41,634 bases of DNA from Verrucomicrobiota bacterium (GTDB taxonomy: Bacteria; Verrucomicrobiota; Verrucomicrobiia; Limisphaerales; UBA9464), in NCBI GenBank assembly GCA_025363585.1, contig JANYDN010000138.1, positions 1-41,634 on the forward strand, given 5' to 3'. The notes beneath the pieces are model-generated. The model did no database searches and was not told where the DNA came from. It saw nothing but the letters and a program-made list of their open reading frames with translations. Shown piece by piece: positions 17,840 to 40,081 of this stretch (position 1 is the stretch's first letter; the number at the start of each line of letters is the position of its first letter). Made by a program: the position numbers and the translations under genes.

Positions 17840-17909
17840 TGGGCTCTTGGCTGGACCGGTGGCGAGGGGGCTTGTATTTACGGGCGACAGAATTCGTGTT
17901 TTCAGGAGG

Positions 17910-19121
17910 ATGAACATCGATACCCAGCCCATCGCGGATTGCACCGGTCCCCGTGCCGTCGCGCCCCATCATGCCGCGGACGAAACGGATTTCGGGCCGC
18001 GTCTCAGCGGGCAGATCGGCGCGGGTTGCCGCCGTGCCACGGCCGCCGGTTCGCCATTCCTGATCGGCGTCCTTCGCGGCGAGGGCATCGGGCCCGAGAT
18101 CATCGAGTGCGCGCTCGAGGTGCTCCGCGCGGTCGGCGAGGCCGACGACGCCTCGTTCCGGATCGAGTTTGGCGGCGACATCGGCCGCGTCTCGGAGAAG
18201 CAATGCGGCCGCGCGCTGTCCGACGACGTGGTCGGTTTCTGCCGCGCCATCTTCGATCGCGGCGGCGTGATCCTCAGCGGCCCCGGCGGCGGTCGCTATG
18301 TCTATGACCTCCGGCAACGCTTCGACCTGTTCTGCAAGCTGAGCCCGATCCGCCCGCCCGCGGAATTGGCCGGTGCCGGCCGCATGGCGGCGGGGCACGC
18401 GGCGGGCACGGACATCCTCGTGGTGCGCGAGTGCGCCTCCGGGCTTTACCAGGGGAAATGGGAACTGGAATCGCGACCGGGCGAACCGCGTCGCGGCGTC
18501 CACACGTTTTCGTACACGGAGTCGGACGTCCGCCGGGTCGTCGGAGCGGCGGCGCGGATGGCGCGCGAACGACGCGGCAGGATCACGGTGATCTACAAGG
18601 AGGCGGGCGCGCCCACGATCAGCGAATTGTGGCGCGACTGCGCGACGGCGATCGCCGCCGAGGTCGGCGTGGAGTGCAACTTCCTCGACATCGATTACTC
18701 CGCCTACCGGATGCTCCAGCATCCTCGCGAGTTCGACGTGATCGTGGCACCGAACCTTTTCGGCGACATTCTTTCCGATGTCGGCGGCGTGCTGCTCGGG
18801 TCGCGGGCGCTCACGTACGGTGGCAACTACGGCGCGGACGGTTCCGCGTTCTACCAGACCAACCACGGTTCCGCGTACGACCTCGCGGGAACGGACCGGT
18901 CGAATCCCGTGGGCCAGTTGTTTTCGCTCGCGCTGTTGTTGCACGAGAGCTTTGGGCTGTCCGGGCCGGCGCGCCGCATCGAGCGCGCGGTCCGCGCCGT
19001 CTGGGCGGCCGGATGGCGCACCGAGGATCTCGCCGAGGCGGGCGGCCGCGTCGTCGGCACCCGGCGCTTCGCCCAACTGGTCGCGGCGGCGATCCTTGAT
19101 CGGTCCCGGCGGGTGGCATGA
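17910..19121 (+). CDS. Isocitrate/isopropylmalate dehydrogenase-family beta-decarboxylating dehydrogenase
   Basis: 403 aa. The fold signature starts at about residue 50 (FLIGVLRGEGIGPEI) and runs to the end: substrate loop VRECASGLYQG (~173), catalytic-type Lys in IYKEAGAP (~228), metal-binding Asp in LDIDYSAYRM, then FDVIVAPNLFGDILSD (~280) and the nucleotide loop NHGSAYDLAGTDRSNP. The family oxidises a 2-hydroxy acid with NAD(P) and decarboxylates it. The substrate loop differs from LeuB (RELTGGIYFG-like) and from isocitrate dehydrogenase, so this is probably a specialised enzyme rather than leucine biosynthesis. Residues 1-49 are an extra segment. AGGAGG lies directly against the ATG at 17910, an unusually short spacing; a TTG at 17847 is a possible alternative. 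70 bp after the cyclase and 1 bp before the next gene, it likely supplies a precursor for the synthetase. Tyr is mostly TAC here, unlike the synthetase. Confidence 0.88.
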   Translation: MNIDTQPIADCTGPRAVAPHHAADETDFGPRLSGQIGAGCRRATAAGSPFLIGVLRGEGIGPEIIECALEVLRAVGEADDASFRIEFGGDIGRVSEKQCGRALSDDVVGFCRAIFDRGGVILSGPGGGRYVYDLRQRFDLFCKLSPIRPPAELAGAGRMAAGHAAGTDILVVRECASGLYQGKWELESRPGEPRRGVHTFSYTESDVRRVVGAAARMARERRGRITVIYKEAGAPTISELWRDCATAIAAEVGVECNFLDIDYSAYRMLQHPREFDVIVAPNLFGDILSDVGGVLLGSRALTYGGNYGADGSAFYQTNHGSAYDLAGTDRSNPVGQLFSLALLLHESFGLSGPARRIERAVRAVWAAGWRTEDLAEAGGRVVGTRRFAQLVAAAILDRSRRVA

Positions 19122-19122
19122 C

Positions 19123-21003
19123 GTGAATGCCCTCCTGATCCTGGTGGATTTGCAGCGCGATTACCTCGCCGCCCCCGGATTGCAACCGCCGGCGGGCGCC
19201 GTGACGGAGCGCGCCGCGCGGTTGCTCGACGCCTTCCGCGCCGCCGGCAGGCCGGTCGTGCACGCGTGGACCACCGTCGATCGCGCCGACGACCGGCGCA
19301 TGCCGCATTGGAAGCGTCTCGGGAAATGGCAGTGCGTGGAAGGCACCGAGGGACACCGACCGCCTCCGGAACTCCAACCGCTCGACGGCGAACCCGTCGT
19401 TCACAAAAGATTCTTCAGCGCTTTCGGCACCGGCGAATTGGACCGGGTATTAAAACAACTCGGCGCGGACACGCTGGTCCTCGCGGGCGTCCATCTCCAC
19501 GCGTGCGTCCGCGCCACCGCGCTGGATGCCTACGAGCGCGGATACCGCGTGTGCATCGCGGAGGACGCGGTCGCGAGCGACGATCCGATCCACGCCGCGA
19601 TCACGCGTCGCTATCTGGGCGACCGCGCCGCGGAATTCCGTCCGGCCGAGTTCTGGTCGGGCCCGTGTGATCCGGATCCGTCGGATATAAGTCGGATCCA
19701 ACCCGCGGTCGGCGGGGCGACGGCATCGGCACGAACCGCGGCGCGGGATTGGGAAGGCACGTCGCCGGAGGCGCGCGTCCGGTTGCTGGAGGAATGGGCG
19801 TGCCGCATCGAGGAAGACGCCGGGATGGCCGGGGCGATCACGGCCGAGACGGGGAAACCGATCCGCCACGCGCGCGGGGAAGTGGCGGCGACGGCGGCGC
19901 AACTGCGGGCGATCGCGCGGCGGATCGCGTCGGAACCGGCGCCGCCCGACGAAGCGACGGCGTTGGTGCGGCACCGCGCTCTCGGCGTGGTGGCGGTGAT
20001 CACGCCTTGGAACAATCCCATTTATATCCCGGCCGGAAAGATCGGGGCGACGCTCGCGCACGGCAACGTCGCGGTGTGGAAACCCGCGCCCGCGGCGTCT
20101 TCGGTCGCACGGCGTCTGGCGGGCCATCTTCGCGCGGCGGGCGCGCCCGAAGGCGTGCTGGGAATCGTGACGGGAGACCGCGCGACCGCCCTCGCGTTGA
20201 TGTCTGATCCCGCCGTGGACGCGGTGACGCTCACGGGGTCGTCCGCCGCCGGCCACGACGCGCAGGAGATCTGCGCGCGGCGCAACATTCCCCTGCAGGC
20301 CGAACTGGGCGGCAACAACGCGGCGATCGTGTGGTCCGACGCGGATCTTCCGGCGGCGGCCGCGGCGATTGCCGAGGGTGCCTTCGCCATGGCGGGACAA
20401 CGCTGCACCGCCAACCGCCGGGTCGTCGTCCACGCGGCGTCGCTCGACGCGTTCCTTGAATTGTTGGTTGAAGCCACCGCCCGGTTGAAGAACGGCGATC
20501 CGATGGATCCCGGGGTGACGATCGGGCCGTTGGTCTCCCGCGCGAGCCGTGATCGCGTCGATGCCTGCGTGGCCCGCGCGCGCGCCCGCGGCCTGCGCAT
20601 CCGCGTGCCGCACGCGGAGGCCGGCGAAGCATCGCCATCCGCCGGAGCCGCGTATCATGACCCGACGTTGATCCTTGCCGACGATCCGCGGGACGAGTGC
20701 GTGCGGGAAGAAACGTTCGGGCCGGTGCTCGTCGTGCAGCGCGCGGCGGACTGGGACGAGGCGATCGCGTTGTGCAACGGGGTCGAGCAGGGACTCGCGG
20801 CCGCGTTGTTCTCGCGGTCCGCGGATTTGCAGCGGGCGTTCCTCGCCGGGGCGCGCGCGGGAATCCTCAAGTTGAACATCTCCACCGCCGGCGCGGACAT
20901 CGACCTTCCCTTCGGTGGTTGGAAATCCTCGGGAATCGGCCCGGCGGAACACGGCGCGAGCGACCGCGAGTTCCATACCCGGACCCAGACGGTGTACCGA
21001 TGA
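19123..21003 (+). CDS. Cysteine hydrolase (isochorismatase-like)-aldehyde dehydrogenase fusion
   Basis: 626 aa from GTG. Residues 1-180 are an isochorismatase-like hydrolase with the full Asp9 (LVDLQRDY), Lys95 (VVHKRFF), Cys128 (LHACVRA) triad; this family cleaves vinyl ethers, nicotinamide, carbamoyl or other amide bonds. Residues ~185-626 are a complete NAD(P)-dependent aldehyde dehydrogenase: TPWNNP, LTGSSAAG, general base Glu394 (AELGGNN), nucleophile Cys428 (GQRCTANR), ETFGPVLVV and FGGWKSSG. Glu-Cys spacing is 34, the family norm. Both halves should be active; fusion suggests that one product feeds the other (an acid and an amine/ammonia-type product). It follows the dehydrogenase by one base and its stop overlaps the synthetase start (ATGA), so it belongs to the same pathway. 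No other in-frame start fits; the GTG at 19123 is the only reasonable one. I know no characterised enzyme with this architecture. Confidence 0.88.
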   Translation: MNALLILVDLQRDYLAAPGLQPPAGAVTERAARLLDAFRAAGRPVVHAWTTVDRADDRRMPHWKRLGKWQCVEGTEGHRPPPELQPLDGEPVVHKRFFSAFGTGELDRVLKQLGADTLVLAGVHLHACVRATALDAYERGYRVCIAEDAVASDDPIHAAITRRYLGDRAAEFRPAEFWSGPCDPDPSDISRIQPAVGGATASARTAARDWEGTSPEARVRLLEEWACRIEEDAGMAGAITAETGKPIRHARGEVAATAAQLRAIARRIASEPAPPDEATALVRHRALGVVAVITPWNNPIYIPAGKIGATLAHGNVAVWKPAPAASSVARRLAGHLRAAGAPEGVLGIVTGDRATALALMSDPAVDAVTLTGSSAAGHDAQEICARRNIPLQAELGGNNAAIVWSDADLPAAAAAIAEGAFAMAGQRCTANRRVVVHAASLDAFLELLVEATARLKNGDPMDPGVTIGPLVSRASRDRVDACVARARARGLRIRVPHAEAGEASPSAGAAYHDPTLILADDPRDECVREETFGPVLVVQRAADWDEAIALCNGVEQGLAAALFSRSADLQRAFLAGARAGILKLNISTAGADIDLPFGGWKSSGIGPAEHGASDREFHTRTQTVYR

Positions 21004-22755
21004 CCGAACCCACGATCATCCGGGCGTTCGATCGACAAGTCGGATTATATCCCGACGCGATCGCCTATAGGTCGGCGTCGGAATCCGTGACTTATACGGA
21101 ATTGCGACGGCGGTCCGGCCGCATCGCGAGCGCCTTGATCGAACGCTCGCCGGCGCCGGGCGAACGGGTGGGCATCCGGTTGCCGCAGGGCGTCGCCTCG
21201 ATCGCCGCTTTCCTGGGAATCCTCGAGGCGGGGAAGATCGCGGTGCCGTTGGATTACATCGGTCCCGACCCGTTGGCCCGCGAGATCCTGGCGGATGCCG
21301 GGGCCTCGTGGTTGATCGGTGGCGAGGCCGGTCACGGGGGCGCGGCGCCGTGGCTGCCGGCGGGTTGTGGTTTCCTTGCTGTCCGCGATCTGGAAACGAC
21401 GGGGACCGGAATTCTTCCGCCGCCGCTTGTGGACGCAGACGCCCCGGCGGTGCTGGTTTATACCTCCGGATCGACGGGACGGCCCAAGGGCGTGTTGAGG
21501 ACCCACGGGAACCTCGTCTGGAACGCGGGCACGTTGGCCGGCGGGCTCTCGGTGCAGGCCGGCGACCGATATGGTTTCCTGGCCGGATATAATACCGGGA
21601 ACGGCGTGTCGAATTTGTTCCGGGCGCTGTTGAACGGCGCCACGATCCTGGGCTTCGACCTGCGCGTCCAGGGCATCGATAGTCTCGCGCCGTGGCTTCG
21701 GGATCAAAAGGCGACCCTCCTCTCGTGCCCGGCGTCGGTGTTCCGCGAACTAATCGCTACGTTGTCGCCGGGCCAGGAATTCCATGGGGTCCGGATGGTC
21801 GGGCTGACCAGCGAGCCCGTCCAACCGCGCGATCTGGAGACGTGGCGACGACATTTCGCGGCGCCCTGCGTTTTCGGCAACACGCTGTCGTCCACCGAAA
21901 CCGGCGTGATCGCGTCGCGGGTGTTCGGGCGCGACACGGTGCTCCCGACGCCGTCCGTGCCCATCGGGTGGCCCGCGGCCGGGGTCCGGGTCCGTTTGTT
22001 GGATGCGTCGGGCGGCGAGTCGGGGGAAGGCGAGTCCGGCGAGATCGTGGCGAGCGGTCCGGGGATTGCCGCCGGATATTGGAATCAGGAAGAAGCAACG
22101 GCGCGGGTCTTCCGGCGCGACGCGGACGGCAGCGTGTGGTTTCACACGGGCGACATGGCGAGCCGTGGGCCGGACGGTTGTATAAGTCACGCCGGCCGCC
22201 GCGATTTCAGGATCAAGGTCCGCGGGCATGGCGTGGAACTCGAGGCGGTCGAGGCGGCGGTCGCCGGGCATCCGGGTGTGCGCGACGCCGCGGTGGCCGT
22301 GCGCTCGGGAACGCGGAACGAAGCCGTGCTGGTGGCCTTCGTCGTGCCCGTCCCGGGATCGGCTCCCGGCGCGGCCGGACTCCGACGCGGTCTCCAGGAA
22401 CGGCTGCCCGAACCGATGGTTCCCGCGTCCTTCGTGTTCCTGGAGAAATTGCCGCGCGGCGCCAACGGGAAGGTGGATCGCCGGGCGTTGGCGGAAATGC
22501 CGGTGGAACATCCGGCGCCGCACGCCGGGATCGCGCCGCGGACGCCGACGGAGGAACGGCTCGCGGGAATCTGGAGCGAGGTATTGGGGCCGGTGGATTT
22601 CGGCGTGGACGATGGCTTCCACGAATTGGGCGGACACTCGTTGTCGGCGACGCGCGTATTGTCGCGGATCACCAAGGCCTTCGAAGTCTCGGTTCCGCTG
22701 CGCGATTTCCTCGGGAATCCCACGATCAAATGGCTGGCGGGCCGGATCGATTCGG
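21000..22755 (+). other. NRPS module 1: loading A domain and PCP
   Basis: The adenylation core motifs VYTSGSTGRPKG (~residue 153) and RIKVRGHGVELEAVE plus NGKVDR with its Lys are present, so it should form an acyl-adenylate. Where amino-acid-activating domains have FD (Asp235, GrsA numbering), this one reads GYNTGNGVSNLFRALLNGA, aligning Gly with Asp235; the A5 motif is LSSTETG instead of YGPTET. Loss of Asp235 means that an alpha-amino group is probably not bound. The starter may be a keto, hydroxy, dicarboxylic or aryl acid. PCP motif LGGHSLSAT. Confidence 0.8.
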
Positions 22756-25700
22756 GGGCGATGGCGATCGTGGGCGATGCCTCCGCGCTTCGGCCGCGGC
22801 GCCGCGACGGCGAGATCCCGTTGTCGTTCGCACAACAGCGGTTTTGGTTTCTCGAACAATTCGGCCCGGGCACCGGCGCCTACAATGTCCCGTGGGCACT
22901 GCGCCTGCGCGGTCGTTTGGATCGCGGGGCGTTGATGCACGGGTTGCACGTCATCGTGGGTCGACACGAATCGCTGCGCACCGTGTTCCGCGCGGGCAAC
23001 GGCGATCCCGTGCAGATCGTCCTGCCCGACGTGGACCTCGAACCGGTGGCGAGGGATTTGTCGGGACTCGCCGGAGAAGCCCGCGAATCCGCCTGCGGGG
23101 AATTCCTGCGCGCGGAGGCCCGCCGGCCCTTCGATCTGGAACGGGGACCGCTGGTGCGCGTCGCGCTGGCGGTGCTCGGGACCGACGACCACGTGCTCCT
23201 GGTCACGCTGCACCACATCGTCTGCGATCGTTGGTCGAAGTGGATCCTGACCCGCGAATTGGCGGTATTATATAAGGACCGCGTCGAGGGTCGCGAACCG
23301 GGATTGCCGGCCTTGCCGCTGCAGTACGGTGATTTCGCGACGTGGCAACGGGAGCGTCCGGAAGGCCCGGGATACGCCGTTGATGTCGGTTATTGGAAGC
23401 GGAAGCTCGCCGGGCTCGAGCCGGTGGAATTGCCGGGCGATCGACCCAGATCCGCGAACGAGAGCCCGGCCGGCGCCACCATGTGGTTCGCGATCGACGC
23501 CGCGTTGGTGCGGGGCGTCGCGGAGTTGGCGCGTCGCGAGGGAACCAGCCCGTTCGCGGTCGCCATGGCCGCGTTCCAGGTCCTGCTGCATCGCCACACG
23601 GGACAGTCGGACCTCGCGGTCGGGACGGCGGTCGCGAACCGGCACCATGTCGATCTCGAGGGCGTCATCGGGCTCTTCATCAACATGCTGGTCATCCGGG
23701 GCGACCTGTCCGGCAACCCGCCGTTCCGTCGGTTCCTGCACGGGCTTTGGCAGACGGTGTTGGAGGCGCGCGACCACCAGGAATTGCCGTTCGAGCGATT
23801 GGTGGAGGAACTCCATCCGGGCCGGAGTCTGGGACGGCACCCGTTGTTCCAAGTCCTTTTCCTCCTGCAGAACATGCCCACGGAGGACCTGTCGCTTCCC
23901 GGCCTCGCGATCGAGACGCTCGACGTCGATTCGGGACGGGCCACGTTCGATTTGTCGGTGGTCCTGATGGAGGAGGAAGGCCAATGGAGGGCGCGCTGGG
24001 AATATAACTCGGACCTCTTCGACGCGGCGACGATCCGGCGGATGGCCGCGCACTACCTGATCCTGCTGGAGTCCGTGGTGTCGGATCCGGAGTGCGTCGT
24101 GGGCGGTTTGCCGATGCTGGCGGGCGACGAGCGACGGTGGTTGCTCGAGACGTGCAACCGCACGGAGTCGCCGTTGCCGGGGGACAAGGGAGTCCACCAT
24201 TTGTTCGCCGAACAGGTGGCGCGCGCGCCCGGCGGGATCGCCGTGGAATTCGGCGAGCGTCGGTTGACTTATACCGCGTTGGATCGTCGCGCGCGCGCTC
24301 TGGCCGCCCGTCTCCGCGCCCTCGGCGTGGGTCCGGACGTGACGGTGGGGGTTTACCTGGAGCGTTCGGAGAACATGGTGGCGGGGTTGCTCGGGATATT
24401 GATGGCCGGCGGCGTCTACCTGCCGCTGGACCCGAACCTGCCCGCCGCCCGCTTGGAACGGATGCTCGGCGACGCGCGTCCCGCGGCCGTGTTGGTCGGG
24501 CGAAAAACGCGGGAAGGTCCACCCGGGAATTCCGCCGCGCTGGTGTGGGTCGAGGAGATGCAAGACGAAGGCGATCCGTCGGACGATGGGAACCGCGGCG
24601 GGGAATATCCGGCGGTCGGCGCGTCCCTTGCCTATATTCTTTATACCTCGGGTTCGACCGGCCAACCGAAGGGCGTCGCGATCCCGCATCGTGCCCTCGT
24701 CAATTTCCTGCTCTCGATGGCCCGCGAGCCGGGAATGGGGCCCGGGGACCGGATGCTGGCGATCACGACGATCGGCTTCGACATCGCCGCGCTGGAGATT
24801 TTCCTGCCGTTGATCACGGGCGCCCGGGTGGTACTCGCGAGCCGCGAGCAAGCGACCGACGGCAAGGCCATTTCGCGCCTCATCGACGGGTCCGGGGCGA
24901 CGGTCGTGCAGGCGACGCCGGCGACCTGGCGCATGCTCGTGGAATCGGGATGGCAGGGAAGCCCATCGCTCCGGTTCCTGACGGGTGGCGAGGCATTGCC
25001 CCGGGAACTCGCGGGACAGTTGTTGGCCCGGTGCGGGGAATTATGGAACCTATATGGTCCCACCGAGACCACCGTCTACTCCCTCGGGTCGCGCGTCGCG
25101 GCCGGGGCGGCGATCGTCATCGGCCGGCCGCTCGCCAATACCCGTGCCTATATCCTCGACGCGCTGCGGCAACCGGTCCCGGTGGGCGTGGCCGGCGAAC
25201 TCCACGTCGGCGGCGAGGGTCTCGCCCGGGGTTATGTAAACCAACCGGGTTTGACCGCGGACAAATTCGTTCCGGATCCGTTCGCGGTCGTGCCCGGCGA
25301 ACGCATGTACCGGACCGGGGACCTCGCGCGATGGCGGTCCGACGGCACCGTCGAGTATCTCGGACGCATCGACCACCAGGTCAAGCTGCGTGGATTCCGC
25401 ATCGAGCCCGCCGAGATAGAATCCGCGCTCGCCGCGTGCCCCGGGGTTTTGCGGTCCACCGTCGTTCTCCGGAAGGATGCGCGCGGCGACGAGCGCCTGG
25501 TGGCCTATATCGTGCCGGTGGACCCGGCGTCGCGCCCGGCGTTCGCCGTCCTTGCCAGGCAACTCCGGTCCGTCCTGCCGGACTACATGGTGCCGACGGC
25601 CTTCGTCGCGCTCGGGTCGTTGCCTTTGACGCCGGGCGGCAAGCTGGATCGGCGGGCGTTGCCCGAACCCGATGCCAACGGGACGGGTACGGACGACACT

Positions 25701-31700: not shown

Positions 31701-33227
31701 GGGGCCCGGATGTATCGCACGGGCGACCGCGTCCGATGGTTGCCGGACGGCACGCTGGACTTCCTTGGGCGCGGGGATTTCCAGGTGAAGATCCGCGGGT
31801 TCCGCGTCGAGTTGGGCGAGATCGAGCGGGTGTTGGAGGAACATCCCGCCGTCGAGGAAGTGGTCGTGGACGCGCGCGCCGGGGCGGACGGCGGGAAATC
31901 GCTCGTCGCCTATTGGAAGGCACGCCCGGGCCAGGCCACCGAGGGCGCCGGTCTCGCGGCGTTCGCGAGGGAGCGGCTCCCTGCATTCATGATGCCGGGC
32001 GCGTGGGTGGAGTTGGCCGCGTTGCCGCTCACGCGGTCGGGCAAGATCGACCGTCGTGCGTTGCCGGAGCCGACGTCGTCGGGAGCGCCGGGCGCGGGTC
32101 CGGCGGAAGCCGACTCGATTTACGAGGCCATGCTGGCACGGCATTTTGCCGAGGTATTGGGACGCGGGAAGGTCGGGCTCGACGACAATTTCTTCGCGTG
32201 CGGGGGGCATTCGCTGGCGGCGTTGCGGTTGCTCCACCGGATCGAGGAAGGGTTCGGCGTGCGGCTGCCGCCGCGCGTGTTGTTCGAGGCGGCGACCGTC
32301 CGCACGCTCTCGGTCCGCATCCAGTCGTTGCGCAAGGAACATCCCGGGGGGTTGTCTTATCCCGCGGGCGATCCGTTGGTCACGATCCAGGAAGGCGACG
32401 GGAAACGGCCGCTGTTCCTGTTCCCCGGGGGTTATGGGGACGAATCGGAATTCCTGACGCACGCGTGGATCTGCCAGCGGCATCTCGGCCCCGATTTCGC
32501 GCTGAAGGCGTTCCGGAACCGCTCGTGGCGCGGCGCCGCGCCGCTGCAGGCCGATCTCCGGACGATGGCCCGCGATTGCATCGCGGACATGCGGCGCGTG
32601 CAGGGCGCCGGACCGTGGCACCTGGTCGGCCTTTGCGTGGGCAGCACCCTCGCGCATGAGGTCGCGCTTCAACTCCAGGAGTCGGGCGAGGAGGTGGCGA
32701 TGCTGGCGATGGGCGACGCGCCGCGGTCCGGTCCTCGTGGCTATTGGAAGTTGTGCCGGGCGGATTCGTTCCGCGGCGCGCGGCAATGGATCTCGAACAC
32801 GCTGTTCCTGGGATTGCCGTGGCTCCGCGCCGCGATGACGGCATCGGGACGTCGAGTGGTCCAGCAACGGCTGCTCGGGGGGCTGGGCCATGGGTCGGCG
32901 GCATCGGGCTCGCCGGAAGCCGCCGCCTTGGAACTGGACCGTCATCTGCACTCGGAATGGTGCCACTATCAGAACGGCGAGGCCTACCTGCGCCGGATGA
33001 TGTCGGTTCCCCGCGGCAAATTCCGCGGGCGTCTCGACCTCATGTTGAGCGGCGAGCACGCGGCCCGGGGACGCGGCATGGAGTGGGCGTCGCGCGCGAC
33101 CGGCGGCGCCGAGGTGCTGCGGCTGCCCGGCTCGCACGCTACGTACCAAGTGGAGGGCGGCGAACAAATCGCCGCCTTGTACCTAAAGCGCCTCGGCCGG
33201 GAATCGGGTGGAACGGACGCCGCCTAG
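21000..33227 (+). CDS. Four-module non-ribosomal peptide synthetase with C-terminal thioesterase
   Basis: 4075 aa, order A-PCP-C-A-PCP-C-A-PCP-C-A-PCP-TE, detailed in the five following entries. Carrier-protein Ser is present in all four GGHSL motifs (residues ~547, 1604, 2674, 3737). Three C domains carry HHxxxD at ~738, 1797 and 2868. No epimerisation, methylation or reductase domain is visible, and there is no donor-accepting C domain at the front, so this protein should start its own chain. The predicted product is a linear or cyclised acyl-tripeptide: unknown starter acid, then Gly-, Pro- and Val-like residues. The start ATG overlaps the preceding stop (ATGA), giving coupled translation. 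No transporter, phosphopantetheinyl transferase or regulator gene of the usual type is in the window. The gene is dotted with TATA-containing AT-rich spots that break its GC-rich codon use. Confidence 0.97.
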   Translation: MTEPTIIRAFDRQVGLYPDAIAYRSASESVTYTELRRRSGRIASALIERSPAPGERVGIRLPQGVASIAAFLGILEAGKIAVPLDYIGPDPLAREILADAGASWLIGGEAGHGGAAPWLPAGCGFLAVRDLETTGTGILPPPLVDADAPAVLVYTSGSTGRPKGVLRTHGNLVWNAGTLAGGLSVQAGDRYGFLAGYNTGNGVSNLFRALLNGATILGFDLRVQGIDSLAPWLRDQKATLLSCPASVFRELIATLSPGQEFHGVRMVGLTSEPVQPRDLETWRRHFAAPCVFGNTLSSTETGVIASRVFGRDTVLPTPSVPIGWPAAGVRVRLLDASGGESGEGESGEIVASGPGIAAGYWNQEEATARVFRRDADGSVWFHTGDMASRGPDGCISHAGRRDFRIKVRGHGVELEAVEAAVAGHPGVRDAAVAVRSGTRNEAVLVAFVVPVPGSAPGAAGLRRGLQERLPEPMVPASFVFLEKLPRGANGKVDRRALAEMPVEHPAPHAGIAPRTPTEERLAGIWSEVLGPVDFGVDDGFHELGGHSLSATRVLSRITKAFEVSVPLRDFLGNPTIKWLAGRIDSGAMAIVGDASALRPRRRDGEIPLSFAQQRFWFLEQFGPGTGAYNVPWALRLRGRLDRGALMHGLHVIVGRHESLRTVFRAGNGDPVQIVLPDVDLEPVARDLSGLAGEARESACGEFLRAEARRPFDLERGPLVRVALAVLGTDDHVLLVTLHHIVCDRWSKWILTRELAVLYKDRVEGREPGLPALPLQYGDFATWQRERPEGPGYAVDVGYWKRKLAGLEPVELPGDRPRSANESPAGATMWFAIDAALVRGVAELARREGTSPFAVAMAAFQVLLHRHTGQSDLAVGTAVANRHHVDLEGVIGLFINMLVIRGDLSGNPPFRRFLHGLWQTVLEARDHQELPFERLVEELHPGRSLGRHPLFQVLFLLQNMPTEDLSLPGLAIETLDVDSGRATFDLSVVLMEEEGQWRARWEYNSDLFDAATIRRMAAHYLILLESVVSDPECVVGGLPMLAGDERRWLLETCNRTESPLPGDKGVHHLFAEQVARAPGGIAVEFGERRLTYTALDRRARALAARLRALGVGPDVTVGVYLERSENMVAGLLGILMAGGVYLPLDPNLPAARLERMLGDARPAAVLVGRKTREGPPGNSAALVWVEEMQDEGDPSDDGNRGGEYPAVGASLAYILYTSGSTGQPKGVAIPHRALVNFLLSMAREPGMGPGDRMLAITTIGFDIAALEIFLPLITGARVVLASREQATDGKAISRLIDGSGATVVQATPATWRMLVESGWQGSPSLRFLTGGEALPRELAGQLLARCGELWNLYGPTETTVYSLGSRVAAGAAIVIGRPLANTRAYILDALRQPVPVGVAGELHVGGEGLARGYVNQPGLTADKFVPDPFAVVPGERMYRTGDLARWRSDGTVEYLGRIDHQVKLRGFRIEPAEIESALAACPGVLRSTVVLRKDARGDERLVAYIVPVDPASRPAFAVLARQLRSVLPDYMVPTAFVALGSLPLTPGGKLDRRALPEPDANGTGTDDTYMAPATPVQERLAGIWGKLLGVERPGLRDDFFEAGGHSLLAMRFVARVRNAWSIELPIRALFEQPSLGGLAERVEALLVRPTGESATIPRRAADDGLPPLSFAQQRLWFLDRFKGSSLEYNMPEVLSLRGALDADALERAFNRVVARHQSLRTRFNEADAVAVQVVAAELRVPLPVEDLSGLGGAQREASIAAAVAHDRADPFDLERGPLLRVRLLRLGPAEHLLLRNCHHIISDGWSREVFDRELEALYAAYISGGDDPLPPLAIQYPDYAVWQRQWLSGAELARQIGYWRGRLADAPALELPLDRPRPAEETHKGGLHRFALPAGLGKRLREFNRMENATPFMTMLGAFQILLSRLSGQNDILVGTPIANRRRLELEALIGFLANTLVLRLDLSGVPDFREIVARVRRSTLDAFEHQDLPFEKLVEELNPARDLARHPFFQVLFGIQDVPPRRLDLEGLEVSVVPGAGGTTHFDLELNVSATGGDWAGYIKYNSDLFDTATIARMAVQFGILLGGLLANPDLEVSRQPLMEADERRRLLSARNPPRANAAAGLRVHETVALVAADAPGRPAATLGDASIGYGELVERADRLARRLIALGVGPDVPVGLCVPRTLDLPVAVLGILRAGGACVPLDPELPDGRLALMLADARPAVVVVQPGLEPRVGGAGHVTVPVDASGPETAAATLYKPRVRAGADDLAYILFTSGSTGRPKGVAVPHRTLENLVEWQVRASGLAPGARTLQFASPGFDVAFQELFATWCGGGTLVMADEATRRDAAALARLVRGASVARVFVPFAVLDALASALCDGPGGPHALREVITAGEALRVTPAIRSMFARWPGMVLVNQYGPTETHVATAWTLAGPPADWPSRPPIGHPVANTSALVLDGHLQPVPIGVAGELYLGGDGLARGYVGSPSSTAARFVADPFDPAGGARLYRTGDWCRRLPDGAIEFLHRRDDQVKIRGHRVETGEVASVLGGAPGVRACVVSAEADAGGDTRLVAHVVPMDPGSPPERAALRDFVRRQLPDAMIPAGIVFLPALPLTANGKVDRRALPSAESKEPETGGSHAYVAPRTPVEDAVAGIWRDVLGTSRAGIHDDFFASGGHSLMAMRLVARVRAVFSVELPVRTLFQHPTLGALAGNILALGDAAPRMRIVPLEAGRRAARTPLSFAQQRLWFLDELEPGGAAYNISSGLRLRGPLDAASLALSLRELVRRHQVLRTTFPATAGEPEQVVGAPCDVAIECSDLRELPEEARLAEARRLSSSAANRPFDLARDPMLRALCLRLADDEHELVITVHHIAADGWSLDVLWRELGVLYSSYIAGRPSPMPELPLQYADYAAWQREWLRGDILDRQLAYWKERMAGAPPLLELPTDFHRPASVGYRGERRELQLAPALGRSIRALGRREGTTLFMTLLAAWASLLCRLGGQDDVVVGTPIGGRTLSELEGLVGFFVNTLALRVDLAGRPTFRELLRRVREVALGAYAHPDLPFERLVEELRPERHSGHAPLFQAMLLLQPAPGPVGPFGTLEAGALDIPFTAAKFDLTLSLREQGDGLRCALLYNTELFEGATIVRWLGHFERLLQGIARDPDCRVGELPLLSDADRRRLLEEWNPAPTGFPGTRCVHELFADQARLTPAATAVVHGGETMTYIGLDGRANRRAHELRARGVSRGSAVAVHLERSADLLVAVLAILKCGACYVPLAVDYPAARKRFILEDCRATVVIGHGDLPDDARPPSCIDIDARGWASGDPDGPAGPPSTDAGPCDPAYVIYTSGSAGEPRGVVVGHRAIARLVFGQSYAEFGGDRVFLQLAPVAFDASTFEIWGALLHGAKLVVAPESPLDLPALGELIRTHGVTTLWMTVGLFNEVIDTRPGTLEGVREILTGGDALSPRHVRLAQEHLGPRTRIINGYGPTECTTFACCHSIPRDSGTAASSVSIGRPIANTLAYVLDARGELAPIGVPGELYLGGPGLADGYLNNPRLTAERFVADPFSREPGARMYRTGDRVRWLPDGTLDFLGRGDFQVKIRGFRVELGEIERVLEEHPAVEEVVVDARAGADGGKSLVAYWKARPGQATEGAGLAAFARERLPAFMMPGAWVELAALPLTRSGKIDRRALPEPTSSGAPGAGPAEADSIYEAMLARHFAEVLGRGKVGLDDNFFACGGHSLAALRLLHRIEEGFGVRLPPRVLFEAATVRTLSVRIQSLRKEHPGGLSYPAGDPLVTIQEGDGKRPLFLFPGGYGDESEFLTHAWICQRHLGPDFALKAFRNRSWRGAAPLQADLRTMARDCIADMRRVQGAGPWHLVGLCVGSTLAHEVALQLQESGEEVAMLAMGDAPRSGPRGYWKLCRADSFRGARQWISNTLFLGLPWLRAAMTASGRRVVQQRLLGGLGHGSAASGSPEAAALELDRHLHSEWCHYQNGEAYLRRMMSVPRGKFRGRLDLMLSGEHAARGRGMEWASRATGGAEVLRLPGSHATYQVEGGEQIAALYLKRLGRESGGTDAA
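22812..25935 (+). other. NRPS module 2: C-A-PCP, glycine-like code
   Basis: The C domain begins LSFAQQRFWF and its active site reads HHIVCDR (~738), with Arg in place of the usual Gly of HHxxxDG. The A domain aligned by eye to GrsA gives specificity residues D-I-L-Q-L-G-L-V-Y-K, close to the known glycine code DILQLGLIWK; the run QATPATW is also typical. PCP motif AGGHSLLAM. It probably joins the starter acid to Gly. Confidence 0.7.
25980..29145 (+). other. NRPS module 3: C-A-PCP, proline-like code
   Basis: C domain LSFAQQRLWF with HHIISDG (~1797). A domain residues read D-V-Q-F-I-A-Q-V-A-K, differing at two positions from the proline code DVQFIAHVVK; the local sequence GFDVAFQELFATWCGGGTL is of the proline-activating type. 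A related cyclic imino acid is possible. PCP motif SGGHSLMAM. Confidence 0.65.
29175..32310 (+). other. NRPS module 4: C-A-PCP, valine-like code
   Basis: C domain LSFAQQRLWF with HHIAADG (~2868). A domain residues read D-A-F-W-L-G-G-T-F-K, one conservative change from the valine code DAFWIGGTFK. The A3 phosphate-binding loop is IYTSGSAGEPRG, with Ala and Arg where Thr and Lys are usual. PCP motif CGGHSLAAL. Confidence 0.7.
32380..33224 (+). other. NRPS thioesterase domain with Cys nucleophile
   Basis: Alpha/beta-hydrolase thioesterase starting PLFLFPGGYGDESEF. The nucleophile elbow reads GLCVGS with Cys3879 where type I thioesterases normally have Ser (GxSxG). The candidate acid Asp3906 (AMGDAP) is 27 residues later, the same spacing as Ser80-Asp107 in surfactin thioesterase, and His4046 lies in LPGSHATYQVEG. 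All triad positions are therefore filled, with Cys for Ser. It releases the peptide by hydrolysis or ring closure. Confidence 0.85.
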
Positions 33228-36936: not shown

Positions 36937-37063
36937 GAAACGAATTAACCGAGAATAGGCAATCGGGTCAAAGTGGGATAGCGATTGGTTGAACGAAGCC
37001 GCTGCGCGGGGGGCTTCGCCGTAGTGGACGACCATGGTGGTCCGGGGCACACGCTCCGGGTGT

Positions 37064-37370
37064 ATGAACACCATTAAGCCACTTCGGCAAAAAGTCATCG
37101 ATCACTCCCTCAAGTCCGCCGAAGCCTCGGGCGAAAGTGGACTCTCAAGTCCGCCGAAGCCTCGCGCGAAGGTGGATCACCCTCCGACAACTCGCCGCGC
37201 GCACCGTCGGGACTTATATCACTTGGGTCGCCGACTTCGCCGGGTTTCACGGGCGCTCTCCCGATGCCCTCGGGCGTCCGGAGATCGACTCGTGGTTACT
37301 CCACCTCATCCAAAGTCGCAAGCTCTCCGACGCCTCCGTCACCCTCGCGAGCGCATCGTGCCACTGCCCC
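37064..37370 (+). pseudogene. Tyrosine recombinase N-terminal fragment, copy A
   Basis: Joined across frames it reads MNTIKPLRQKVIDH..., then RTVGTYITWVADFAGFHGRS and LGRPEIDSWLLHLIQSRKLS, the SAM-like core-binding domain of a phage-type integrase (IS91-associated or IntI-like; not resolved). A tandem duplication of the palindromic word TCCGCCGAAGCCTCGCGCGA breaks the frame after IDH, and the catalytic domain (Arg, His, Tyr) is missing. Confidence 0.65.
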
Positions 37371-37753
37371 CGGATTTTCACGGCGCGATTCTCTCCCGCT
37401 GAATCGCCCGGTGCGGCAACTCGGTTTCCGGAACACCGATTGTTCATGGGAAGCAAGGGAGCAGGGAACGGGGTTGGCCTGCCACCGCAGGAAGCGGGCG
37501 ACAAGGCACATCCCTTTCCTGCGGGGAAGTGGGAGCCACAGATTGCGGTCCATTTGCACGGAATTGTTCCTCGGGAAGGAAGATCTGGCGTTGGGAAACC
37601 GGAGGAGTCCCGACGATCCTCCGCACGGGGTTCTTGGGCCAACGCGCGGCAACGGAACCCGGATTTCCCGAACTCCCCTTCGCCCAACAACGCCATCCAA
37701 ACAAAACAAAAATCTGTGGAAATGGGTTCCAATCTGTGGCTAACAGATCCTCG

Positions 37754-38011
37754 CGAACAACCGGCGCAAGCGCGTCGTGCCACTCGCGCGCGATGCGCCG
37801 GCCCGGACCCGGTGGCACCTCGCCCTCGCGATCCACGCCGCGCTGCCGCGGGCCCGTGCGCGACGAGGCCGAATGCCCCCGTTGCGGGGCCACCGAACTC
37901 GTGTGCGTTGGCCGGCTGGATGCGCACGGCCGATTCACGCCCCTGGCGGCGGGAGCGCGCCGGCTGCGCATCCGCACGGGCGATCCGCCGGCGTCACTCG
38001 ACACCTCGTGA
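37754..38011 (+). pseudogene. Zn-ribbon-like transposase remnant, copy A
   Basis: In pieces over several frames: a basic stretch RRKRVVPLAREAPA-like, then (by comparison with copy B) ECPRCGATELVCVGRLDAHG and RRLRIRTGDPPA. The CPRCG pair resembles the C-terminal zinc ribbon of IS91-type transposases. Not translatable as one frame. Confidence 0.45.
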
Positions 38012-38077
38012 GATGAACGCAAGCGCCCATGAAATCGTGGCCGCGCCGCGCCGGAGCCTTTGCAAGTGTTGGGGGAC

Positions 38078-38140
38078 ATCCGCAGATGGCGCAGATGCCG
38101 CAGATAAACATCTGCGTGAATCTGCGCCATCTGCGGATAA
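38078..38140 (+). repeat. GCAGAT dispersed repeat, copy 3
   Basis: CATCCGCAGATGGCGCAGAT followed by CATCTGCGTGAATCTGCGCC and ATCTGCGGATAA; same family as the copies at 5.4 and 5.8 kb. Lies inside element copy A. Confidence 0.75.
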
Positions 38141-38343
38141 ACTCCCCGGTTTCAACACCGTCTCTGAATTGAGGGTCGGGAAACCGGCCGCGGGACCCCC
38201 TGCGGGCGGGTTGGTATGCGGGGCTCGTCTTCTTATACCGGGCCCGGGAGCGAATGGAACCCGACGAAAGCACGGTGGCCCGCACCTTCGGCAAGCGGAC
38301 CCGGGCTAGTTTTCCTATAGCCTGCGGGCTTCCCCGCGGCTCC

Positions 38344-38430
38344 GTCCAACCGCGAAATAAATCGGGCGATCCATCCCCGCTCCCGATCCACGCCCATCCG
38401 CGCCCGATCTATTCCGCTTAGGTGTTAGGC
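38344..38430. other. Folded site at end of element copy A (attC-like)
   Basis: GTCCAAC at the left and GTTAGGC at the right match the R-box consensus in both directions, and GCGAAATAAATCGGGCG pairs with CGCCCGATCTATTCCGC (3 mismatches in 17). There are no extrahelical bases and the two spacers differ in length (1 and 6), so it is less typical than the three good sites. The stop codon of the next minus-strand gene lies in its GTTAGGC end. Confidence 0.45.
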
Positions 38431-38768: not shown

Positions 38769-38861
38769 GCCTAACGACACGAGCTCAGCGACCCGGCGCA
38801 CGAAACGCAACCATTGCAACCACAACCCTGACGCCGGGTTCGCTGGAGCGCATGGTTGAAC
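38769..38861 (-). other. Integron attC site 1
   Basis: Minus strand: GTTCAAC, 5-base spacer, arm GCTCCAGCGAACCCGGCG, a ~33-base central part, arm CGCCGGGTCGCTGAGC, spacer, GTTAGGC. The left arm has two unpaired bases (C and A) relative to the right arm, the extrahelical-base pattern known from V. cholerae VCR and aadA-type attC sites. This fixes the orientation as minus-strand, the same as the genes. Confidence 0.72.
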
Positions 38862-38930
38862 GAAGCCGCTGCGCGGGGGGCTTCGCCGTAGTGGACGACA
38901 ATGGGGGTCCGGGGCACACGCTCCGGATGC

Positions 38931-39232
38931 ATGAACACCATTATGCCACTACGGCAAAAATTCATCGATCACTCCCTCCAGTCCGCCGAAGCCTCGCGCG
39001 AAAGTGGACCCTCAAGTCCGCCGAAGCCTCGCGCGAAGGCGGATCACCCTCCGCCAACTCGCCGCGCGTACCGTCGAAACTTATATCACATGGGTCGCGG
39101 ACTTCGCCGGGTTTCACAAGCGCTCCCCGGACACCCTCGGGCGTCCGGAAATCGACTCGTGGTTACTCCACCTCATCCAAGAGCGCAAGCTTTCCGACGC
39201 CCCGTCACCCTCGCGAACACGTCTCGGCACTG
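38931..39232 (+). pseudogene. Tyrosine recombinase N-terminal fragment, copy B
   Basis: Joined across frames: MNTIMPLRQKFIDH, then ITLRQLAARTVETYITWVAD and FAGFHKRSPDTLGRPEIDSW, LLHLIQERKLSD. Carries the same tandem TCCGCCGAAG repeat insertion as copy A after IDH, so both copies descend from one already broken gene. Catalytic domain absent. Confidence 0.65.
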
Positions 39233-39404
39233 CCCCCGGGATCACTCGGAAGGGGACCCAGACATTTTTTACAGGAGGAAAGGGAGGAAACGGAGGCCGA
39301 GGCATGCCGGTTTTCCAACATGGACTTCCCGCAGAGGCGGTGTGGCAAGGTTGATCACGTGGGGATCTCTGCGTCTCCGCGTCTCTGCGGGAGTTAATAC
39401 ATCG

Positions 39405-39672
39405 CGCGCGAATGGAGAACCGGCGCAAGCGCGTCGTGCCGCTCGCGCGCGAGGCGCTGGCCCGGACCCGGTGGCACCTCGCCCTCGGATCCACGCCGCC
39501 CTGCAGCGGCCCGTGCGCGACGAGGCCGAATGCCCCCGTTGCGGGGCCACCGAGCTTGTGTGCGTCGGCCGGTTGGAGGCTCACGGCCGCTTCACGCCCC
39601 TGGCGGCGGGAGCGCGCCGACTGCGCATCCGCACGGGCGATCCGCCGGCGGCACCCGACACCTCGTCAGATG
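39405..39672 (+). pseudogene. Zn-ribbon-like transposase remnant, copy B
   Basis: One frame reads DEAECPRCGATELVCVGRLE, AHGRFTPLAAGARRLRIRTG and DPPAAPD; an upstream frame gives NRRKRVVPLAREALARTRWH. Frames change between the two parts. Possibly the 3' end of an IS91-type transposase; the assignment rests on the CxxC pair and its position next to an integrase fragment. Confidence 0.45.
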
Positions 39673-39732
39673 AACGCCACCGCCCATGAAATCGTGGCCG
39701 CGCCGCGCCGGAGCCTTTGCAAGAGTTGGGGG

Positions 39733-39785
39733 ACATCCGCAGATGGCGCAGATAAACATCTGCGTGAATCCGCGCCATCTGCGGA
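39733..39785 (+). repeat. GCAGAT dispersed repeat, copy 4
   Basis: Shortened version of 38078-38140 inside element copy B, missing one internal GATGCCGCA unit. Confidence 0.7.
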
Positions 39786-39994
39786 CAAAATCTCCGCGTT
39801 GAACATCGCCCCTGGATCAAGGGTCGGGAAACCGGTCGTGGGGAGCCCATGCGGGCGGTTTGTCATCCGAGGTTTGTCTTCTTATACCGGGCCCGGAAGC
39901 GAATGGAACCCGGCGAAAGCACGGTGGCCCGCACCTTCGGCAAGCGGACCCGGTCTAGTTTGCCTATAGCCTTTGGACTTCCCCGCGGCTCCCC

Positions 39995-40081
39995 GTCCAA
40001 CCGCGAAATAAATCGGGCGATCCATCCCCGCTCCTATTCCACGCCCATCCGCGCCCGATCTATTCCGCTTAGGTGTAACGT
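39995..40081. other. Folded site at end of element copy B (attC-like)
   Basis: Same arms as 38344-38430 (GTCCAAC; GCGAAATAAATCGGGCG with CGCCCGATCTATTCCGC), but the right box reads GTAACGT rather than GTTAGGC. The two copies diverge exactly at this box. Confidence 0.4.

Follow-up and report, generated by a model that had tools for sequence, protein, structure and literature searches.

The stretch of DNA analysed here (the window; 41,634 nucleotides) is one contig (C169) of the 5.13-Mb draft genome of an uncultured verrucomicrobium. It encodes an intact four-module non-ribosomal peptide synthetase (NRPS) that carries, at its C-terminus, a thioesterase (TE) with a complete Cys-Asp-His triad in the layout of EntF, AB3403 and BulbE. 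The domain is probably an ordinary terminal type I NRPS thioesterase of the kind that combines a Cys nucleophile with an Asp at position I; every step from the triad layout to the product is one that we infer. Finding Cys as the nucleophile of such a thioesterase should not be read as a flag for β-lactone or β-lactam release, as it is the majority state in the sampled domains of the order. To screen for chemistry of the ObiF/SulM type, it is better to look first at where the triad acid lies.

The NRPS gene and its neighbours

The architecture revealed by the Pfam scan is A1-PCP1-C2-A2-PCP2-C3-A3-PCP3-C4-A4-PCP4-TE, i.e. A-PCP-(C-A-PCP)x3-TE (Table 1). The gene starts at the ATG 21000-21002, which forms an overlapping ATGA with the stop of the ORF before it (21001-21003), and ends with TAG at 33225-33227. 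Motif reading showed the protein to be intact, with GGHSL in the four PCPs and HHxxxD in the three C domains. The ORF immediately upstream and the genes of dehydrogenase type may, we infer, supply the starter acid. Between 33.3 and 41.6 kb the window has scant clear coding signal. Two diverged direct copies of a stretch of about 1.3 kb (36980-38425 and 38847-40076; about 79-96% alike by segment) are found there, and the repeat region contains an N-terminal fragment of a tyrosine recombinase (37137-38309; Pfam Phage_int_SAM_4, with a weak NCBIfam integron-integrase match).

Table 1. Coordinates in the window of the NRPS gene, its thioesterase triad and the upstream ORFs
Feature	Position	Strand	Evidence
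Isocitrate/isopropylmalate dehydrogenase-family ORF, upstream of the NRPS	17847..19121	+	Pfam scan
ORF with isochorismatase-fold then aldehyde dehydrogenase domain, single frame	18778..21003	+	Pfam scan; overlaps NRPS start
NRPS gene, 4075 aa	21000..33227	+	Pfam scan, motifs, ORF list
Starter module A1-PCP1	21000..22799	+	Specificity code
PCP4 (DNFFACGGHSL), carrier feeding the TE	32136..32312	+	PF00550 at residues 13-71 of the translation of window 32100-33227
Terminal thioesterase domain	32370..33224	+	PF00975; AlphaFold2 model
Nucleophile Cys3879 (TGC), GLCVGS	32634..32636	+	Codon read; invariant in clade
Triad acid Asp3906 (GAC), position I (+27)	32715..32717	+	Codon read; clade alignment
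Triad His4046 (+167), in LPGSHATY	33135..33137	+	Codon read; clade alignment

The thioesterase domain

With a PF00975 match of 48.8-56 bits (cut-off 26.4), a location C-terminal to a PCP and a nucleophile-Asp-His triad, the domain is a type I NRPS thioesterase; its Cys nucleophile and the Asp at +27 assign it to the position-I enzymes of the AB3403/BulbE kind. A first-pass annotation made from the sequence had named Cys3879 in GLCVGS as the nucleophile, with an Asp 27 residues on and His4046, and this was confirmed, including the TGC codon (residues are counted from the ATG at 21000). In the alignment, position II, which lies 30 residues before the His, is occupied by Leu. A long lid was considered as a special feature and rejected, since the Cys-His spacing of 167 is normal (160 in AB3403; median of 161 in the sampled Ser TEs).

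The AlphaFold2 model of the domain is of the α/β-hydrolase type (mean pLDDT 80.9, the lid being weaker). The best solved fold in VIA-align was SgTE1 (7CRN; Z 24.4, rmsd 4.7, 230 aligned), followed by AB3403 (4ZXH; Z 23.1, rmsd 3.6, 242 aligned), and EntF (3TEJ; Z 22.3, rmsd 2.2, 191 aligned) also ranked above SulM (Z 19.4, rmsd 4.3, 224 aligned), where Z differences smaller than 1 are to be read as ties. ObiF was absent among the 50 VIA-align entries listed, an absence that carries no weight. SgTE1, AB3403 and EntF also headed the profile search of solved structures, and neither ObiF nor SulM was among the best 60 of the 72 PDB matches of the clade profile.

Conservation of the triad in relatives

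A paralogous TE on another contig (C88) of the same genome, 63% identical to that of the window, has the motif GLCVGG, and the motifs of relatives in other genomes are GLCIGG, GDCTGG, GDCIGG and GDCLGG. None of the seven members of this clade (the window TE, the paralogue and five relatives) deviates from Cys, Asp at +27 and His, and they also share an inserted loop of the GG[YN]G type close to the oxyanion hole. Conservation of the triad throughout the clade, whose other members are 31-63% identical to the window domain, looks like the product of selection and not of error. As the window is a single contig of a draft assembly, the Cys at residue 3879 might be suspected of being a decayed Ser or an artefact of sequencing or assembly. 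However, the triad and the entire gene are intact, and the same column holds Cys in the paralogue on a separate contig and in the five relatives from other genomes; these independent sequences refute an error, the probability of which is negligible.

The nearest relatives by TE domain are in verrucomicrobial draft genomes. When 388 genomes of the phylum, few of them close relatives, were searched with a seven-sequence profile (E 1e-25), no clade members were found outside the window genome; the remaining matches were TEs of the GYC[FL]GG type. The NRPS on C88 (L025:1461-8198, minus strand) has the order A-PCP-TE(Ser, GYSFGG)-C-A-PCP-TE(Cys), such that an internal TE-like domain precedes a condensation domain. 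It adjoins a protein of the molybdenum aldehyde oxidase/xanthine dehydrogenase type (L025:9518-13714, minus strand).

Cysteine and serine nucleophiles in the order

The order was sampled by a PF00975 search of 196 genomes, from which most of the matches linked to NRPS/PKS were aligned. The nucleophile column contained Cys in 67 of the 107 sampled domains, Ser in 40 and no other residue; the resulting Cys share of 63% is approximate, the domains having been picked by open-frame length and score. The proposal of the first-pass annotation that the Cys signals an unusual release is not upheld by these counts: in many TE groups of the order Cys is a frequent nucleophile, and it is therefore a poor marker. 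Large groups with GYC[FL]GG and GWC[YF]GG motifs occur across the order (e.g. L009, L010, L011, L065, L103). In these groups the acid at position I is replaced by Asn or Glu (39 of the 67 Cys domains), while most of the GYC[FL]GG TEs retain the Asp of a CS[FY]D motif, located five residues ahead of the W in a conserved GW. The triad acid may have moved in them.

A tree of 146 domains was calculated by a quick method without bootstraps and with the nucleophile column masked, and many of its deep forks are unresolved. The window TE belongs to the all-Cys clade of seven (SH-aLRT 100), which is separate from the type II TEs, from a mostly-Ser clade containing EntF and from AB3403. The best tree requires 14 changes between Cys and Ser, two of them forced by well-supported branches. 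The annotation had named, as a result that would count against its proposal, a clustering with ordinary thioesterases in which Cys is frequent, and this is where the domain falls. The Cys of the window TE is probably in large part inherited, as the usual state of the TE domains of the order.

Predicted chain and its release

The specificity codes, read by alignment, are GNSSGTTVI (A1), DILQLGLVY (A2), DVQFIAQVA (A3) and DAFWLGGTF (A4). Because the A1 code is without Asp235, the starter is probably not an α-amino acid. Asp235 is missing in the starter A domain alone, and the three elongation A domains differ from A1 at this position. DILQLG- has been published as a Gly code (PMC12283262), on which the assignment of Gly to A2 is based, and A3 is taken as Pro-like from the published code DVQFVAQVV (PMC9113097). 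DAFWLGGTF, the code of A4, is listed as that of Val for malacidin MlcM (PMC9113097), and the identical code recurs in the last module of the paralogue. The earlier prediction of a Val-like last residue, with the ring type left open, thus holds. The predicted units are a starter acid, Gly, a Pro-like residue and Val. As a Val terminus has neither a β-hydroxyl nor a β-amine, a four-membered ring is unlikely; a ring could be closed by an amine or a hydroxyl group if the starter acid carries one. In the proposed reaction, PCP4 would hand the chain (starter acid-Gly-Pro-Val) to Cys3879 to give an S-acyl enzyme, with His4046, supported by Asp3906, acting as the base. Release by water or a simple amine would then yield a linear acid, an amide or a macrolactam, the last of which may close through the starter.

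Comparison with known thioesterases

The first-pass annotation had linked the Cys to ObiF and SulM. ObiF1 and SulM do resemble the window TE in being α/β-hydrolase thioesterases with a Cys nucleophile, but only the Cys speaks for a β-lactone- or β-lactam-forming enzyme, and the triad acid is placed differently. In ObiF1 (Asp1254) and SulM (Asp2926) it follows the next strand, at position II, 30 residues before the His, and ObiF1 has Gly1173 at +27 (PMC6668435, PMC11298585), whereas the window TE has Leu at position II and Asp at +27. The Cys-His spacing, computed from residue numbers, is 138 in both ObiF1 and SulM versus 167, and the SulTE motif Gln-Cys-Asn (PMC11298585) contrasts with Leu-Cys-Val. 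The last residue bears a β-nucleophile in the ObiF1 and SulM systems but is predicted to be Val-like here, and the MbtH domain fused to ObiF1 has no counterpart in the Pfam scan of the window NRPS. The Pfam-scanned neighbours include no hydroxylase or sulfotransferase, and the lower fold score of SulM points in the same direction. The ObiF/SulM TEs have been reported to group with type II TEs (PMC11298585). Our tree was built without ObiF, SulM and BulbE, and the distance from these three is judged by triad layout, profile rank and fold score. Given the different triad layout and the lack of a β-hydroxyl or β-amine on the predicted Val, four-membered-ring chemistry of this kind is unlikely in the window TE, and that the domain is a β-lactone- or β-lactam-forming TE is very improbable.

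A stronger competitor, although still a doubtful one, is a TE in which Cys is needed and not merely inherited, for a demanding intramolecular release such as macrolactam formation through a weak nucleophile. A parallel is the BulbE-TE of the bulbiferamides from Microbulbifer, whose triad Cys961/Asp988(+27)/His1097 has the layout of the window TE; it forms an indolylamide macrolactam, and replacing its Cys by Ser leaves hydrolysis alone (PMC11536411). In ObiF, SulM and BulbE, the three Cys enzymes that have been tested, Ser stands in for Cys poorly or not at all in making the ring product (PMC6668435, PMC11536411), which leaves Cys as a possible sign of a demanding release, and it is invariant in the window clade. 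However, the frequency of Cys in many TE groups of the order weakens this argument, the chain comprises only four units, and residues 2 to 4 have no predicted nucleophile-bearing side chain. BulbE-TE also differs in its shorter Cys-His spacing (136) and in its substrate, a ureidopeptide of six residues in which Trp provides the ring nucleophile. It is improbable, though less so than ObiF/SulM chemistry, that the all-Cys clade of seven with its GG[YN]G-type insertion constitutes a TE group with a release chemistry of its own, for example closure of the short Gly-Pro-Val chain into a strained small ring, or its transfer to an external amine.

An ordinary terminal type I thioesterase, the reading preferred here, has its counterparts in AB3403, EntF and SgTE1. 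AB3403 of Acinetobacter baumannii is likewise a terminal NRPS TE with a Cys nucleophile and the acid at the usual position (PMC11298585). It resembles the window TE in its Cys, contained in GWCFGG, its Asp at position I and its Cys-His spacing, and differs in an identity of only about 18% over the fold alignment and in belonging to another clade of the tree. The EntF TE and SgTE1 are type I NRPS TEs with Asp at the same position and are among the best profile and fold matches, but in both the nucleophile is Ser, and SgTE1 is a bifunctional enzyme that epimerises and cyclises.
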